A stretch of 39,255 nucleotides of DNA from Kiloniellaceae bacterium (GTDB lineage: Bacteria > Pseudomonadota > Alphaproteobacteria > Kiloniellales > J153). The notes beneath the pieces were generated by a model. It was not told where the DNA came from, ran no database searches, and saw only the letters and a list, made by a program, of their open reading frames with translations. Each line of letters opens with the position of its first letter. The first letter of the stretch is position 1. Both the position numbers and the translations under genes were made by a program. The stretch lies in NCBI GenBank assembly GCA_021776055.1, contig JAJFGP010000182.1:1-39255 (forward strand), written 5' to 3'. This document shows, one piece after another, positions 1,664 to 8,767 of the stretch.

Positions 1664-4600
1664 CTAGCGCTGTTCCTCCTGTGCCGCAACGACCACGCTG
1701 GGGCTCAGGGAATAGGCCCAGCCCAGGGCCAGGCCCCAGGCGATCCACAGCAGCTCGCGGGCGCGCCGGACCACGGCTACCACCAGCCCCAAGGTCGGAA
1801 CACCGGTCAGGGCGCCGTATAAAAGGAACAGCACGCCCTCGGTCACGCCCAGGCTGCCTGGAATAACAAAGGCGGCGGCGCGCACCAGTTGTGCCATGGC
1901 CTCGATCAGCCAGATATCGCTCAACGGCAACGGATGCCCGAGGAACCACATAATCACATAGAGTTCAGTCATACCGATCAGCCAATTGAGCAAGGCCAAT
2001 AGCCAAGCGCCGACAAAGCGCCCCCGGCAGTCGCCATAGAAATGGGCGAAACGGTCATCTACGTCCTGGATATGGACCAAGACGCTTTCCAGGCGCCGAC
2101 CGATGCGCCGTTGGGCCAACCAACCCGCTAGCCGGCTGGCCGTTCGCCAACGCTGCACAGCGTAAAAACCGCCTACGCCGAGGGCCAATGCCAGAAGGCC
2201 GGACCCGGCAACCCACCGGTAGAGCGCCGGCAAATTTTCCGCGGCAAGCACGAAGGCAAACCCCACCGCCGCGAATGTTACCAGGGCCAACAGGTTGACG
2301 GTCTTGGCAATAACCAGCGACGCGCCGCTTTCCCGGTAGCTAATACCGTGGAATTTCTTGAGCAGAAACGCCTTCACCGGCTCGCCGCCTATCGAACCGG
2401 CGGGAACGACCAGATTGAACGCCTCGCCCACCATGCGCACCTTCCACAGTCGGTAGAGCCAATCAAGATTGAGCCGGGCGCTGGGCAACATCAGATGCCA
2501 GGACGCGGTGTCTACCAAGAAGGCCAGAAAAAACACCGCCCCGACCGCCAGCGCCCCGGTGCCGCCAAGCTGAACCAGACGACGCCACAAATCCGCCAAG
2601 TCCGCCTGGGTGGCGATAAAGCCAAGCAAACCGAGTCCGACAAACAATGCCAATACGCGGACCAGCGTGCGACCGGCGGGCCTGCTCTTGCCACCGGCCG
2701 AGCCACCCGGGAAGGTCGCCAGAAGTGCTGGCAATACGATGAGCGTACAAACCAGCGACAGGCATATGGCAATGGTCAGCAGGATGCCCATGCCGGCGGT
2801 TCCGCGGTGGCTGGACAACGCCAGAGCGCCGAACGAGCCAATGGTGGTGAGCGCACTATAGAGCACGGCGCGCGGTGTACTGGTCGCCGTGAGGCTGCTG
2901 CCGCTGGCCCCGCGTCCGCGCACGACAATATGAATGGCGCCGGCAACCCCCAAGCCAAAAAGCAACGGCAGAACGATGACGTTGGCAAAGTTGAATGGAA
3001 CGGCCAGAAGCACGGTCGCCGCCACTGTTAGCGCAGCGGCAAGAAGTAACGGTGCTAACACCAGCGCCGTTTCACGCAGGCTGCGCAGGATTACAAGCAG
3101 CAACAGGACGATCAGTGAGACGGCATAAATCGCCGCTTCGGCAAAGGCCCGGACAACCGCTCGCCCGGCTTCGGTAATGGTAATTGGCGGACCGGTGGCG
3201 GCGGGTGCTATCCCGGTCACCGCATCAACGAAACGGCGGCGCCGATCCGAATCGTGCAGGTTTCCTTCCGGCACCACATCGACCAATGCACGCCCGTCGG
3301 CGGCGACCATGCGTGCCTGTACCTGCGCCGGCAGATCCTCGAGCGTAACCGGCCCGGCCTGTAGTGCCTCGTCAAGATCGTCCAGGCGTTGCGGTAGGCC
3401 ACTCAGGAGAACTCGCTGCAACTCGGCGATGGCCGACTCGTCGCTGCCGAGCCGATCCAAGGCAGTGGCAAACCGGGCAGCGCTGGCGCGCAACGATGCA
3501 GGCGCCTCATCCAGACTCTTACGTAGCCCCGATAGCACTTGGGCAAGTTCCAGCGGTGTTGGCGGCGCCGGGTGTTCTTGGGGTACTAGGATAGGTGTCA
3601 AAAACAGCGCCATGTCGTCGACGATCGCGAGTTTTTCGTCCTGAACCTGCGGCACGAGGTCGGCCAGGGTCGTCGCGCTTTCCACCTCTGGTAGTTCATC
3701 AAGCCGCGCCGCCAAACGCGCGCCCTCCGACAAGTCCGATGCAAGCACCTGGGCCCGATATGGCTGCAAACGCGGATCGTCGAGCAGATCAAGAAGCGTC
3801 GCCACGGACTCCGTCTCAAGGTCGCGCAAATTCAGCGGATCGTCATCGAACCAAACGAAAGGCGCTGATGCCGCGGCACCCAGACCCAACACAAGCGCCA
3901 CACCGACGACCCATCGTCGATGGGTAACCACCGCGCCTTGTAACCAGTCCCCGGCGCGGTTGCGTGGCAGCGCCAATCCTGGCCGCAACGGAAATAGGAC
4001 CAGGATCGCCGGCAGAATCGTCAAGTTGGCAAACAAGGCGATAAACATGCCGACCCCGGAAATGAGGCCGAGTTCAGAGACCCCGCGGTAGTCGGTGGGC
4101 AGGAACGAAAAAAATCCGATCGCCGCGGCAACGGCGCAGAGTGCCAGCGATCCGCCCACGCCACTGGCCGCATCGGCCAGCGCTTGACCAGGCGCGCGCT
4201 GTGCCCGCACTTCGTTGCTGCTCCCATCCAGCGCCTCGCGATAACGCAAGGCGAAGTGAATTCCAAAATCGACACTAAGACCGATAAACAGCACCGCAAA
4301 GGCAACCGAGATCAGGTTCAACTCGCCGATTGCCAGGGTTGCAAAACAGGCGGTCCAAACGAGGCCCATGACCAACGTCAGTAAGGTGGCCGCGACCAAC
4401 CGCACCGACCGCAGGGCCATGGCAAGCAGACCGGCCACCAGCAACGCCGAGATCAGCCCGACCAACCCCATGCTGTCCCGCAGGGTCTCCAGTTCTTCTT
4501 GGAATAGGACGGGCGAGCCGGTTAGGCGCACACGCACCCCGTGCGCTTCATCCAACTGCATATCCACGGCAAGGCGGCGCACTGTCTCGATCGCCGTGGC

Positions 4601-5326
4601 CGCGGGCGACAATGAACCGAAATCGAGAACAGGCTGCACGGCGATGAAACGGCGTCTTGTCTCCGGCGTCGGCGCCTCGTCCGCAAGCAACTCGTGCCAG
4701 GATAGCGGAGTGGCGACGCCGGACCCGGCGCGCGCATCGGCCAGCGATTCAACCGCCGCCGCCATTTTGTCCAGGGCCGGCGCTACAGCGGCCCGCGCGG
4801 TTCCGCTTCCCGCGTCATCCGTAAGCGCCTGAGTCAGCACCCCGGCCAAACCGCGCAGGGACGGGTCTTCGCTCAATGCCGAGAGCAACGGCTGTGCCTC
4901 CGCCAAGCGGTCGGAGAGCGCTTGTAACTCGACGATATCCAAGTACAGCAGGCCGTTGCGGCGGAAAAAAGGATCGCCTTCCGCAAAAAACACCTCGCGG
5001 AACACCTGCGAGCGCGCGGCCATGCCATCGGCCAGTGCCATGGCTGCGTCTGCCGCCAGGTCCGCGGTATCGCCATCTATGACAACGATCAAGGTGTCGC
5101 TCAGTTGCGGAAAGGCGCGCGATAACACCGCATCGTGGCGGCGAAACGGCAGCTCCGGCGAGAGCATGTCCGTGGTGCTGGTATTAATGCCGATCTTGGC
5201 GATCGTAACGTAGCCGGCCCCACCGGTCGCCAGCACCGCCAAGACAAGCACCAACGGCGCGATGCGCTCGACGAGGCGAATCCATCGGGCCAAGAGGTGT
5301 CCCACGCGCACAGCGGAGAAAATCAC
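1664..5326 (-). CDS. HpnN-like hopanoid RND (MMPL) transporter fused to HpnL/LPG-synthase-like membrane domain
   Basis: A 1220-residue polytopic membrane protein with a GTG start. Residues 1-873 match the size and layout of HpnN, the RND-superfamily transporter that moves hopanoids toward the outer membrane. There is one N-terminal TM, a large periplasmic domain (about 45-270), five TMs containing the MMPL-type segment FIGLSVDFGIHFALRYRE, a seventh TM, a second periplasmic domain, and a second TM block with LLFGLGVAGAIHIVVRGR. After a Gly-rich linker (GGSAGGKSRPAGR, residues 874-886) comes a full-length domain of about 330 residues of the lysylphosphatidylglycerol-synthase TM / HpnL family, recognisable by GEAFNLVVPAGSIGGEP and IPGSLGVTEG. 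HpnN and HpnL are normally separate proteins; here they share one frame with no stop. A divergent CDP-alcohol phosphotransferase lies 215 bases away. The RND assignment is firm; hopanoid as substrate is inferred from family, since no hopanoid biosynthesis gene lies in the window. Confidence 0.85.
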   Translation of the reverse strand: MIFSAVRVGHLLARWIRLVERIAPLVLVLAVLATGGAGYVTIAKIGINTSTTDMLSPELPFRRHDAVLSRAFPQLSDTLIVVIDGDTADLAADAAMALADGMAARSQVFREVFFAEGDPFFRRNGLLYLDIVELQALSDRLAEAQPLLSALSEDPSLRGLAGVLTQALTDDAGSGTARAAVAPALDKMAAAVESLADARAGSGVATPLSWHELLADEAPTPETRRRFIAVQPVLDFGSLSPAATAIETVRRLAVDMQLDEAHGVRVRLTGSPVLFQEELETLRDSMGLVGLISALLVAGLLAMALRSVRLVAATLLTLVMGLVWTACFATLAIGELNLISVAFAVLFIGLSVDFGIHFALRYREALDGSSNEVRAQRAPGQALADAASGVGGSLALCAVAAAIGFFSFLPTDYRGVSELGLISGVGMFIALFANLTILPAILVLFPLRPGLALPRNRAGDWLQGAVVTHRRWVVGVALVLGLGAAASAPFVWFDDDPLNLRDLETESVATLLDLLDDPRLQPYRAQVLASDLSEGARLAARLDELPEVESATTLADLVPQVQDEKLAIVDDMALFLTPILVPQEHPAPPTPLELAQVLSGLRKSLDEAPASLRASAARFATALDRLGSDESAIAELQRVLLSGLPQRLDDLDEALQAGPVTLEDLPAQVQARMVAADGRALVDVVPEGNLHDSDRRRRFVDAVTGIAPAATGPPITITEAGRAVVRAFAEAAIYAVSLIVLLLLVILRSLRETALVLAPLLLAAALTVAATVLLAVPFNFANVIVLPLLFGLGVAGAIHIVVRGRGASGSSLTATSTPRAVLYSALTTIGSFGALALSSHRGTAGMGILLTIAICLSLVCTLIVLPALLATFPGGSAGGKSRPAGRTLVRVLALFVGLGLLGFIATQADLADLWRRLVQLGGTGALAVGAVFFLAFLVDTASWHLMLPSARLNLDWLYRLWKVRMVGEAFNLVVPAGSIGGEPVKAFLLKKFHGISYRESGASLVIAKTVNLLALVTFAAVGFAFVLAAENLPALYRWVAGSGLLALALGVGGFYAVQRWRTASRLAGWLAQRRIGRRLESVLVHIQDVDDRFAHFYGDCRGRFVGAWLLALLNWLIGMTELYVIMWFLGHPLPLSDIWLIEAMAQLVRAAAFVIPGSLGVTEGVLFLLYGALTGVPTLGLVVAVVRRARELLWIAWGLALGWAYSLSPSVVVAAQEEQR

Positions 5327-5541
5327 AGGAGAACCACAGTCGGCTGGCCAGGAACGGTTTTTGCGGAACGGTCTGGTTTGTATATCCGGTGTGGGCGTTT
5401 TACAACGGTCACCAACGAATCTTGCCGGCAGTTCCCGGTTCCGCTACTGATTCATCCCATCCCGACGCGAAAATTTGAATTGGCCGAACCATATATGATG
5501 CCCGTGACCTACCCTAGCCGATTTACGTGGGCGGCGCTGTC

Positions 5542-6192
5542 ATGACGACGACACCGTACGATCAAAGAATTGCCCGCGTCATGGTCCGGCCGCTGGCGAA
5601 AGTCGGGATAACGCCGAACCAGGTGACCGCCTTCACGCTGGTATTGGCGCTTGCCGCCGCTTGGTTGTATGCACTCGGCGATGCCGGGTTGGCGCATTGG
5701 GCGGCGGGGATGTTCGTTCTCGCCCGTTTTCTGGACCATTTCGACGGCGAGTTGGCACGTTTGACCAACAAGACGTCGCGCTTTGGCTATTACTTCGACT
5801 ATGTCACCGGCGGCGTGAGCTACGCGGCGCTCTTCTTCGGGATCGGTTTCGGTCTTACGGACGGTTTTCTGGGCTATTGGGCAATTGGCCTTGGCACTGC
5901 CGGCGCCATTGCCTCGTTGCTTTCCATGCTCCTCAATCTCGGCCTCGATTCGCGCATGGAGTTCGCGGAGGGCGACCGAGTCGGGTATCCAAGTTACGGG
6001 GGATTTGAGCTTGAGGATGGAATCTATCTGATCGCCCCCATTACCTGGCTTGGCTGGATGCCGGAATTTTTCGTCGTGGTCGGAATTGGCTCAACTGCTT
6101 ATTGCGTATGGACGCTCAGCCGCCTGGTAGGACTGCGACGGGCACCGGCAACACACGACACGCAACCGGGGTCAGGACCCGGCGCCGCGTAA
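5542..6192 (+). CDS. CDP-alcohol phosphotransferase homologue lacking the last motif Asp
   Basis: A multi-TM protein of 216 residues from the ATG at 5542; an in-frame GTG at 5527 is the alternative, and neither has a clear ribosome binding site. ATG is preferred because the N-terminus then aligns with the neighbouring paralogue. It has the CDP-alcohol phosphotransferase signature D65-x2-D68-G69-x2-A72-R73-x8-G82-x3-D86-x3-X90. In active enzymes position 90 is an aspartate regarded as the catalytic base; here codon 90 is GGC (Gly). The other metal and CDP ligands are intact, so it may bind CDP-alcohols without normal catalysis, use another base, or have a new role. It is divergent from the HpnN-HpnL fusion gene and converges with the intact paralogue, overlapping it by 21 bases. 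Confidence 0.82.
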   Translation: MTTTPYDQRIARVMVRPLAKVGITPNQVTAFTLVLALAAAWLYALGDAGLAHWAAGMFVLARFLDHFDGELARLTNKTSRFGYYFDYVTGGVSYAALFFGIGFGLTDGFLGYWAIGLGTAGAIASLLSMLLNLGLDSRMEFAEGDRVGYPSYGGFELEDGIYLIAPITWLGWMPEFFVVVGIGSTAYCVWTLSRLVGLRRAPATHDTQPGSGPGAA

Positions 6193-6777
6193 GAGGCTGC
6201 GGAATTTAGCCAACATCAGAAGAGCGAAGCCCGGAGCGCCAACGGCTGCTGCCAGCAAGAGCCAATCGGCCCCGCCAAACCATACGGCGAGCGGCAGAAT
6301 CAGCATCGCATCGTCCGGATCGAATCCGCCTACTCCCCCCAGTTCACCAGCCCGCGCGCCGTGAAGATCCTCCAGCCGGACAATCAGCAATAGGATCGCC
6401 GCAATCGCCGCACCGGCGGCAAACCCCATAGGCGAGGCCCAGACGCCAAACATACCGTCCCGCAAGCCAACGCCCAGGCCCAGAAACGCCAAGGCGTTCG
6501 AGACGGAATCGCTGACCAGGTCATAGGTATGGCCCCACGGACTCGTCTTGCCGCTTAGCCGCGCCAGCTCGCCGTCGGCTCGGTCCAGAAACATAGAAAA
6601 AAGGAAAATGCCCGCACCCCACTGGCGCCAGACCTCGTCGCCATGGGCGAGGGCGCCCGCCGCGGCAAATCCCGCCACCAGACGAAGGGTTGTGACGTGA
6701 TTGGGCGAGAGGCGAGTGGTCGCCAGCGGCCGGACGGCTAGGCGGACCACCCGGTGAATCCAGGTGTTATGGCTCAT
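6172..6777 (-). CDS. CDP-alcohol phosphotransferase family membrane enzyme
   Basis: A 201-residue membrane protein with the complete CDP-alcohol phosphotransferase motif D65-x2-D68-G69-x2-A72-R73-x8-G82-x3-D86-x3-D90, in perfect register with the convergent neighbour that has Gly at position 90. Family members transfer a phospho-alcohol from CDP-alcohol to an acceptor alcohol (phosphatidylglycerophosphate, phosphatidylserine, phosphatidylcholine or phosphatidylinositol-phosphate synthesis). The sequence does not reveal the acceptor. The frame extends upstream to 6825, but the ATG at 6777 (MSHNTWIH...) is chosen because it matches the paralogue's N-terminus and leaves a normal family length. 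The two genes look like an inverted duplication in this lipid-related block. Confidence 0.85.
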   Translation of the reverse strand: MSHNTWIHRVVRLAVRPLATTRLSPNHVTTLRLVAGFAAAGALAHGDEVWRQWGAGIFLFSMFLDRADGELARLSGKTSPWGHTYDLVSDSVSNALAFLGLGVGLRDGMFGVWASPMGFAAGAAIAAILLLIVRLEDLHGARAGELGGVGGFDPDDAMLILPLAVWFGGADWLLLAAAVGAPGFALLMLAKFRSLLRGAGS

Positions 6778-6928
6778 GCGGCGGGAGCTTATAGCAAATC
6801 TCGCAGATGTGGACCCCCCAGCCACACCAGGAACAAATCATGAATAACGGCCCCATTGCGCCCCTCGCACCGAATCGCCGATGTGGCCTGATCGTCCAAT
6901 GAATCAAGTTGTTAGCGGGAAATTACCA

Positions 6929-6959: not shown

Positions 6960-7895
6960 ATGCCGCTTCCTGCTTCAGACAGTGAGATGGGCACCTTGCG
7001 CTACAAGAACGGCAAACCCGTGAAGTCAAAGCGTGTCGGCAAAAAGCCGGCCGCGGCCTCGCCGCGCGCCAGCCGTAAGGCCACGCCGCAGTCGAGCCCG
7101 GCTCAAGAATCGCCTGCCGCCAAGGCGGTCGAACCGACGCCGACCAAGCGCGAGCGCCGCCGGGTGACCACGCCGCCACCTCTTTCGACGGGCGCTGCTG
7201 CTGCCGCGCCGCAAAACTCAGCGGAACACGGGCCCACCGGCCCAACCCTGTCTGGCGCGGCCAGTGCTGTTACCGGCGAACGGCGGCGGTGGTCGGACCG
7301 GCCGGGCCCGGCGACCAACACCAGCGAAGCCAAGCGCAGTGAATCCGGCGACTCTGGTGAAACGCCAGTGCGCGCCAACAAGCTGATGCCGACCAACGCG
7401 GTGCATCCGACGGAAAGGCGCATCAAGCGGCGCATGCACAAGAACGGCGCGCTCGTCGCCGCTGCCGGCGCCGCATTGCTAGGCGTATTGATCCTCAGCA
7501 ATCAGAGCGAACCGCCCGAGCTGGTCCTTAGCGATCGGCAGATAGCCTCGCGCCTGCCAGCGGGCCAGGATTGGCAAAGCGACACCACAGCACCCGCGTC
7601 CGAAGCCGCCAGCCGCGCCGGCATCCCCGATAGCGACAGCCCTCGGGTCACCGCGCCCGCACCGCCCGTAGCCCTAACCGATGGGCTGAGCGCCGGCGAA
7701 ATCATCGAAATGGAACGTATGCTCGGCCGCCTGGATCTGGCTGCTGGCACACCTGACGGCATCATCGATGGCGACACCACTCAAGCCATCCGCCTATACC
7801 AACAGATTGCCGGTCTTCCTGTCGACGGCGAGGCATCGCCGGATCTGCTCGCCGACATGCGCGAAGTGGTGAAGATTCTCGACAGCAGTAACTAG
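6960..7895 (+). CDS. Peptidoglycan-binding domain membrane protein with long disordered N-terminus
   Basis: The encoded protein has 311 residues. The first 155 or so are rich in Pro, Ala, Lys, Arg and Ser and look disordered and basic. A single TM follows (about residues 163-180, GALVAAAGAALLGVLIL), then a linker. The C-terminus carries a peptidoglycan-binding (PG_binding_1) repeat: EMERMLGRLDLAAGTPDGIIDGDTT followed by an AIRLYQ helix (about 245-300). The topology suggests a cytoplasmic basic tail and a periplasmic domain that touches the cell wall. The start could be the ATG at 6960 or the ATG at 6987 (MGTLRYKNGKPVK); neither has a strong ribosome binding site. A CtrA-like box precedes it, suggesting cell-cycle control. 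Its stop overlaps the ispE stop by three bases (convergent). The exact role is unknown. Confidence 0.75.
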   Translation: MPLPASDSEMGTLRYKNGKPVKSKRVGKKPAAASPRASRKATPQSSPAQESPAAKAVEPTPTKRERRRVTTPPPLSTGAAAAAPQNSAEHGPTGPTLSGAASAVTGERRRWSDRPGPATNTSEAKRSESGDSGETPVRANKLMPTNAVHPTERRIKRRMHKNGALVAAAGAALLGVLILSNQSEPPELVLSDRQIASRLPAGQDWQSDTTAPASEAASRAGIPDSDSPRVTAPAPPVALTDGLSAGEIIEMERMLGRLDLAAGTPDGIIDGDTTQAIRLYQQIAGLPVDGEASPDLLADMREVVKILDSSN

Positions 7896-8767
7896 GCCAT
7901 AGTCCGACCCAGGACAGGCGCCGCGGCAACCCACCACGTTGACCTTTGCTCTCCGATCATAGCGGCGGCGGCGCGCGCCGACGCCGGATCGGCATAGAGA
8001 CCAAAGCATGTCGCCCCGCTTCCCGACATACGGGCCAGGAGACAGCCATCGGTCGCCTGGAGCACCGCCAGCACATCGTCGATCTCGGGCGTCAAGCATC
8101 GCGCCGCCGGTTCCAAATCGTTGCGGTACATAGCCAGCCGCGCCGCTAGGTCCGTGGCCTCGGCAATCGGCTCGGTCCAAGGCTGCGGCGGCGAAAAATT
8201 ACCCTCGCGGGCGGCAAAGACGGCGCCGGTCGCCAATGCTCGGCCCGGATTAGCCAAAACCAGCCAAACCGGCGGCAGGTCCGGCACCGGGGCGATACGC
8301 TCGCCAATTCCTGAAACATAGCTGGGTCCGCCGGCCAGGCAGACCGGCACATCGGCGCCGAGGCCAAGGCCAACCTCGCTCAACAACGCCGCATCGCCGG
8401 CGCCCCAGAATTCAACCAGACCGAGGAGCGTAGCCGCCGCGTCGGCAGAGCCACCGCCAATACCGGCCGCAACGGGCAGGTGCTTATCCAGACGGATATG
8501 GGCGCCATCGGCAATGCCAAGGCGCCCCCGAAGCGACCGCGCCGCGCGCAGCACCAGGTTGTCCTCGTCCGCACTTCCGGTTGCGGCAATCGCCGGCGCG
8601 AATGGACCCGTTATCGAGAGTGTTAGGTCGGCGGCGGGGGTAAACTCCAACGTGTCACCGACTCCGGCGAAGGCCACCAAGCTTTCCAACTCGTGATAGC
8701 CGTCGGCACGGCGTCCAGTGATATGGAGGGTCAGGTTGACCTTGGCCCAGGCGAGGCACCGGTGCAT
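7892..8767 (-). CDS. ispE: 4-diphosphocytidyl-2-C-methyl-D-erythritol kinase
   Basis: IspE phosphorylates CDP-ME to CDP-ME 2-phosphate in the MEP isoprenoid pathway, using ATP, in the cytoplasm. The 291-residue length is typical. The GHMP-kinase ATP-binding loop is PVAAGIGGGSADA at residues 98-110. The N-terminal AKVNLTLHITGRRADGYHELESL (about 8-30) carries the conserved Lys9 and substrate-binding residues. GADVPVCLAGG and the late RMSGSGATCFGLY segment are also family hallmarks. It starts 31 bases after the stop of the TPR lipoprotein gene on the same strand, so the two are likely co-transcribed. Isoprenoid supply fits with hopanoid and quinone metabolism elsewhere in the window. Confidence 0.96.
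   Translation of the reverse strand: MHRCLAWAKVNLTLHITGRRADGYHELESLVAFAGVGDTLEFTPAADLTLSITGPFAPAIAATGSADEDNLVLRAARSLRGRLGIADGAHIRLDKHLPVAAGIGGGSADAAATLLGLVEFWGAGDAALLSEVGLGLGADVPVCLAGGPSYVSGIGERIAPVPDLPPVWLVLANPGRALATGAVFAAREGNFSPPQPWTEPIAEATDLAARLAMYRNDLEPAARCLTPEIDDVLAVLQATDGCLLARMSGSGATCFGLYADPASARAAAAMIGEQRSTWWVAAAPVLGRTMA

Follow-up and report, generated by a model that had tools for sequence, protein, structure and literature searches.

An HpnN-type hopanoid transporter fused to an HpnL-like domain of predicted flippase fold in a Kiloniellaceae bacterium

HpnN, a pump with an RND core, is known to send hopanoids to the outer membrane. Their passage across the inner membrane ahead of this export is a standing question, as is the role of HpnL-type proteins, and the gene fusion described here bears on both. 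The role of hpnL was listed as not established in a 2025 study of alphaproteobacterial hopanoids (PMC12583986), and we found no function for HpnL in the literature searched. A better understood relative in fold is MprF. In the Rhizobium tropici protein, subdomain 1 is the flippase core, with a pair of half-membrane hairpins and a gate of Glu280 and Arg304 (PMC8131360). The Pseudomonas aeruginosa MprF scrambles lipids promiscuously and without an energy source (PMC11980842). Finally, a study of Roseomonas notes a linkage of hopanoid and phosphonate genes, and proposes an unknown terpene-phosphonate as their product (PMC8776678).

The window, as we call the whole stretch of 39,255 nucleotides analysed here (contig JAJFGP010000182.1), comes from a draft genome of 3.72 Mb in 183 contigs that is 99.8% complete. 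It carries a gene in which hpnN runs on into a second membrane domain (Table 1). The gene starts with GTG and has 1220 codons with no internal stop, as the initial annotation had claimed in calling it a single-gene fusion with an uninterrupted frame. The N-terminal half is a full-length HpnN-type transporter, again as claimed: it scores 967 bits against the NCBIfam model TIGR03480 (cut-off 751.85) over residues 12-870, and its fold matches the solved HpnN structure 5khn_A with a Z of 49.0 over 828 residues (rmsd 3.7). With the narrower HpnN equivalog NF052374 the score is 711.9 bits against a cut-off of 1100, and we do not claim membership at that level. The VDF motif of the RND core includes Asp353, to which we assign a proton-relay role from what is known of the RND family. 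The Pfam scan of the whole protein gave MMPL and LPG_synthase_TM and found no aminoacyl-phospholipid synthase domain; the protein ends at residue 1220, just past the transmembrane domain. Since the genome has no second HpnN over the cut-off and no second match of the TIGR03476 type, the fused gene is not a spare copy.

The C-terminal half is a complete membrane domain of the LPG_synthase_TM type (PF03706, 108.2 bits against a gathering cut-off of 33.4), in agreement with the initial annotation, and it also exceeds the cut-off of TIGR00374 (56.5 bits against 43.2). The annotation had gone further, naming HpnL as the partner and proposing a search of the two halves against the HpnN, HpnL and PF03706 models. 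The first and last of these gave scores above their cut-offs, but the HpnL model TIGR03476 did not (145-150 bits against 195.65); the assignment thus holds for the superfamily and fails for HpnL proper. In a tree of 50 sequences the domain belongs to a separate clade of 35 rows with support of 100/100; the HpnL proteins that exceed the TIGR03476 cut-off are among the rows outside it. The score and the tree together rule out classical HpnL as the identity of the domain. We name this clade HpnLx. Several genomes hold both HpnLx and a classical HpnL. The fusion is a variant of known families whose partner is not HpnL proper.

The AlphaFold2 model of the HpnLx domain is confident, with a mean pLDDT of 89.9. 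Its best fold matches are six MprF entries with Z values of 18 to 21, the next unrelated entry having a Z of 5.6. The aligned span of MprF is approximately residues 30-350; for the predicted model the values are Z 21.2 over 302 residues (rmsd 4.7) with 9j8s_A, and Z 20.8 over 289 residues (rmsd 4.0) with 6lvf_A. At the sequence level, a profile of HpnLx matched nothing in the PDB, and the likeness to MprF came to light only in the fold comparison. The model has two pairs of short helices, which are located at the two conserved motifs of the domain. Both motifs had been quoted in the initial annotation and are present in the protein. E1163, in the second motif, precedes R1187/R1188 by 24-25 residues. 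By analogy, this pair may correspond to the Glu280-Arg304 gate of MprF.

The linker is the region of lowest pLDDT in the model of residues 11-1210 (mean pLDDT 89.3, pTM 0.71). The models do not fix the packing of the two domains against each other. The RND core, with its even number of transmembrane helices, ends on the cytoplasmic side. The 14-TM domain of MprF, whose synthase is cytoplasmic, starts in the cytoplasm (PMC8131360). As the RND core ends where the MprF domain begins, the join is possible with both topologies kept. A separate HpnLx made from an internal start is unlikely: the sequence around the linker has neither ATG nor GTG in frame, and the TTG codons that it does have lack a clear ribosome-binding site.

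Table 1. Features of the fused gene and its conserved neighbours (positions in the window)
Feature	Position	Strand	Remarks
Fused gene, hpnN + HpnL-like domain of predicted flippase fold	1664..5326	-	1220 aa, one open frame
HpnN domain, residues 12-870	2717..5293	-	TIGR03480 and fold match
Codon of Asp353, VDF motif of RND core	4268..4270	-	aligned with Asp344 of 5khn
Linker, residues about 873-886	2669..2710	-	hpnN end / hpnLx start in relatives
HpnLx domain, residues 889-1200	1727..2662	-	PF03706; predicted MprF subdomain 1 fold
GEAFNLVVPAGSIGGEP motif, residues 967-983	2378..2428	-	first re-entrant hairpin region (predicted)
IPGSLGVTEG motif, residues 1155-1164	1835..1864	-	second re-entrant hairpin region (predicted)
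CDP-alcohol phosphotransferase, type B	5527..6192	+	PF01066 46.6 bits, cut-off 22; conserved neighbour
CDP-alcohol phosphotransferase, type A	6172..6825	-	PF01066 52 bits, cut-off 22; conserved neighbour
ispE (isoprenoid precursor kinase)	7892..8767	-	347.6 bits, cut-off 204; neighbour conserved in the family

For the neighbourhood we compared the window with 80 hpnN loci of public genomes. Distant relatives commonly have the order phosphotransferase A, phosphotransferase B (on the other strand), hpnN, phosphotransferase C, hpnLx and hpnM. In the family of the window, phosphotransferase C is not found between hpnN and hpnLx; the two genes are directly adjacent, and fused in three genomes. Among the 62 loci with enough flanking sequence, a phosphotransferase lies within 3 kb in all 26 that have HpnLx no more than 3 kb from hpnN, as against 8 of the 36 without it (Fisher's p 1e-10, a value uncorrected for the shared descent of these related loci). 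One cluster of open reading frames (c28), which runs opposite to the phosphotransferase genes and overlaps them, was left out because we take its members for shadow ORFs. In the window, type A has the complete DxxDG..AR..G..D..D motif, and type B has Gly for the fourth Asp. The complete motif is absent from all 27 type B copies, 22 of which have Gly at that place, the other 5 being altered or truncated. Type B may be an inactive partner, or may work differently.

The genome has a hopanoid gene set. Its squalene-hopene cyclase scores 794 bits against 431, HpnA, B, C, D, E, H and M are over their cut-offs, and HpnG is just below (174 against 187). The physical link between export and a second function that the initial annotation had read from the gene is supported by a true fusion in a genome with hopanoid genes. 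A nucleotidyltransferase gene adjoins hpnA and is of the same type as those in the clusters of relatives. Another contig encodes a PEP mutase-NTP transferase fusion, with phosphonopyruvate decarboxylase directly after it; the mutase carries EDKxxxxxNS, the signature of true PEP mutases (PMC6697681). Members of this nucleotidyltransferase family are able to activate 2-aminoethylphosphonate (AEP) with CTP (PMC6697681). The ends of two contigs of this assembly (G000:C126 and G000:C75; loci L156 and L163) overlap inside the squalene-hopene cyclase gene, where they share 891 bases at 94% identity. This suggests that the assembly holds two strains and that the hopanoid cluster continues from one contig to the other.

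Phosphonate genes are also found in relatives. PEP mutase and/or phosphonopyruvate decarboxylase occur at 9 of the 19 HpnLx loci with long upstream sequence, as against 1 of 28 loci without HpnLx. In the examples tested, the relatives' PEP mutase-NTP transferase, phosphonopyruvate decarboxylase and AEP transaminase are over their cut-offs, and many of the same HpnLx clusters include HpnA, IspH, HpnH and squalene-hopene cyclase. In one locus (L044, 5082-8580) much or all of the AEP pathway, namely PEP mutase-NTP transferase, phosphonopyruvate decarboxylase, AEP transaminase and a PhyH-type hydroxylase, sits inside the hopanoid gene cluster; similar arrangements are seen in L053, L063, L070, L075, L092 and L110. 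Three genomes of the sister genus g281 have no PEP mutase over the cut-off and keep HpnLx and the phosphotransferases. AEP therefore cannot be a universal head group, and genera may differ in the one they use. In the literature searched we came across no phosphorus-bearing hopanoid.

To the reading that the fused gene encodes one inner-membrane protein joining two consecutive steps of hopanoid trafficking, flipping and export, we give roughly even chances. The neighbouring CDP-alcohol phosphotransferases would attach a head group, possibly AEP, to a hopanoid on the cytoplasmic side. HpnLx would then move the polar hopanoid from the cytoplasmic side to the periplasmic leaflet, from which HpnN would extract it with proton-driven force. 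A candidate for carrying it on toward the outer membrane is HpnM, of the MlaC family. Probably the cargo is a hopanoid with a phospho- or phosphono-head group. Because the P. aeruginosa MprF scrambles without an energy source (PMC11980842), HpnLx may likewise scramble, and HpnN may give the direction. A narrower version, in which HpnLx is a dedicated flippase for unreported phospho- or phosphono-hopanoids, the phosphotransferases supply their head group, with AEP wherever PEP mutase occurs, HpnN exports them, and flippase and exporter form one machine, we put forward tentatively and with some doubt.

A lost stop or a frameshift in a mis-assembled draft contig could imitate a fusion, and such an error would fit a draft in so many contigs and the two separate genes that are usual in relatives. 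A search for the same fusion in relatives, as the initial annotation had advised, turned up two further genomes. The one from the same genus (G416, locus L035), separately assembled and 84% identical, has the same uninterrupted frame and a linker of equal length. Between it and the window, dN/dS comes to 0.13 for the N-terminal half and 0.11 for the C-terminal half, with 0.33 for the linker of 14 codons; both halves are therefore under selection inside one open frame. In the other, likewise separately assembled and from another genus of the family (G415, locus L087), the genes are fused across an intact junction with a linker that differs from the window's, the gene itself being broken by contig ends. 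Given the same frame, the equal linker and the purifying selection in a separately assembled genome, the fusion is not a sequencing slip, and we consider an artefact hardly credible.

The function of the second domain could also be read otherwise. HpnLx could be a lipid-binding or assembly subunit that has no flippase activity and loads substrate, regulates the exporter or acts as a scaffold, the fusion serving only to fix stoichiometry. Similarity of fold does not show function, no HpnL-type protein has been characterised in the literature searched, and HpnN can work without HpnLx, which is not found near hpnN at 36 of the 62 adequately flanked loci. The conserved re-entrant hairpin motifs, the conserved E...R pair with the spacing of the MprF gate, and a match to MprF far above background nevertheless speak for flippase activity, and we think a non-flippase subunit unlikely. 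Alternatively, the halves could act on different lipids, HpnN on hopanoids and HpnLx on a phospho- or phosphonolipid that the CDP-alcohol phosphotransferases would make, with the fusion a by-product of the operon and little coupling between the two. CDP-alcohol phosphotransferases usually make glycerophospholipids or related lipids, and a fusion forms readily where the ends of two genes overlap, as those of hpnN and hpnLx do at an ATGA junction in L037 and L039. This division of labour is improbable in our judgement: HpnLx lies beside hpnN, and within the hpn cluster in several genomes, and the open frame is kept across two genera, in one of which purifying selection was measured.

The fusion would have originated when adjacent, overlapping hpnN and hpnLx genes were brought into one frame. 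In G413 and in g281 the genes are separate neighbours, as they are in the remaining relatives of the family that have both; in L038 they overlap or lie close together, depending on the start codon. The initial annotation had stated that HpnN and HpnL are separate proteins in known systems. HpnN and an HpnL-like protein as neighbours are not new here: unfused, and either adjacent or one gene apart, they are common in Rhodospirillales-like alphaproteobacteria. In a tree of the joined N- and C-terminal halves, G415 groups with the relatives in which the genes are separate, and the hypothesis that all fused genes form one clade is rejected (p-AU 0.020). Therefore, either two fusions occurred, or one fusion was followed by a later split. 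No other fusion was found elsewhere in the phylum among 398 sampled genomes, 48 of them with HpnN over the cut-off. A long open frame in G756 (1232 aa) was rejected as a fusion; it extends upstream only, and the HpnL-like gene is in another frame. Outside the family of the window, L006/L168 (G292:C376) is a near-fusion: hpnN and hpnLx share a reading frame, and one TAG is all that separates the two matches as a stop. The literature searched has no report of this fusion; the architectures in UniProt and InterPro were outside the search and may list it without comment.

In the reading that we prefer, flipping followed by export, the presence of a pump and a flippase-like domain in one protein suggests that the two steps work together. 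By joining an MprF-like flippase fold physically to an exporter, the natural fusion provides a single protein with which to test the idea. The constant CDP-alcohol phosphotransferases and the frequent phosphonate genes point to polar hopanoids not yet described. Such lipids would be of interest to membrane biology, and also to geology, where hopanoids serve as biomarkers.

In closing, we compare the fused protein with the systems closest to it. It resembles HpnN (5khn, 5khs, 6wu0) in its full-length RND fold, its score over the TIGR03480 cut-off and the hopanoid synthesis genes of its genome, and differs by a second, C-terminal membrane domain of about 330 residues; delivery of hopanoids to the outer membrane is predicted for it from this likeness. 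HpnLx shares with HpnL (TIGR03476) the PF03706 superfamily, relatedness over the whole length and the hopanoid gene context, whereas it scores below the HpnL cut-off, forms its own clade, is tied to hpnN and the CDP-alcohol phosphotransferases, and is fused here. With MprF (6lvf, 9goe, 9j8s) it shares the predicted fold of subdomain 1, two predicted re-entrant hairpins and a similar E...R spacing; unlike MprF, it has neither the second TM subdomain nor the aminoacyl-phospholipid synthase, and is joined to an RND pump instead. The Roseomonas clusters, as far as the available text of that study describes them, likewise link PEP mutase genes to hopanoid genes, but there the linkage concerns hopene cyclase and terpenoid genes and does not include HpnN, HpnLx or the CDP-alcohol phosphotransferases (PMC8776678).
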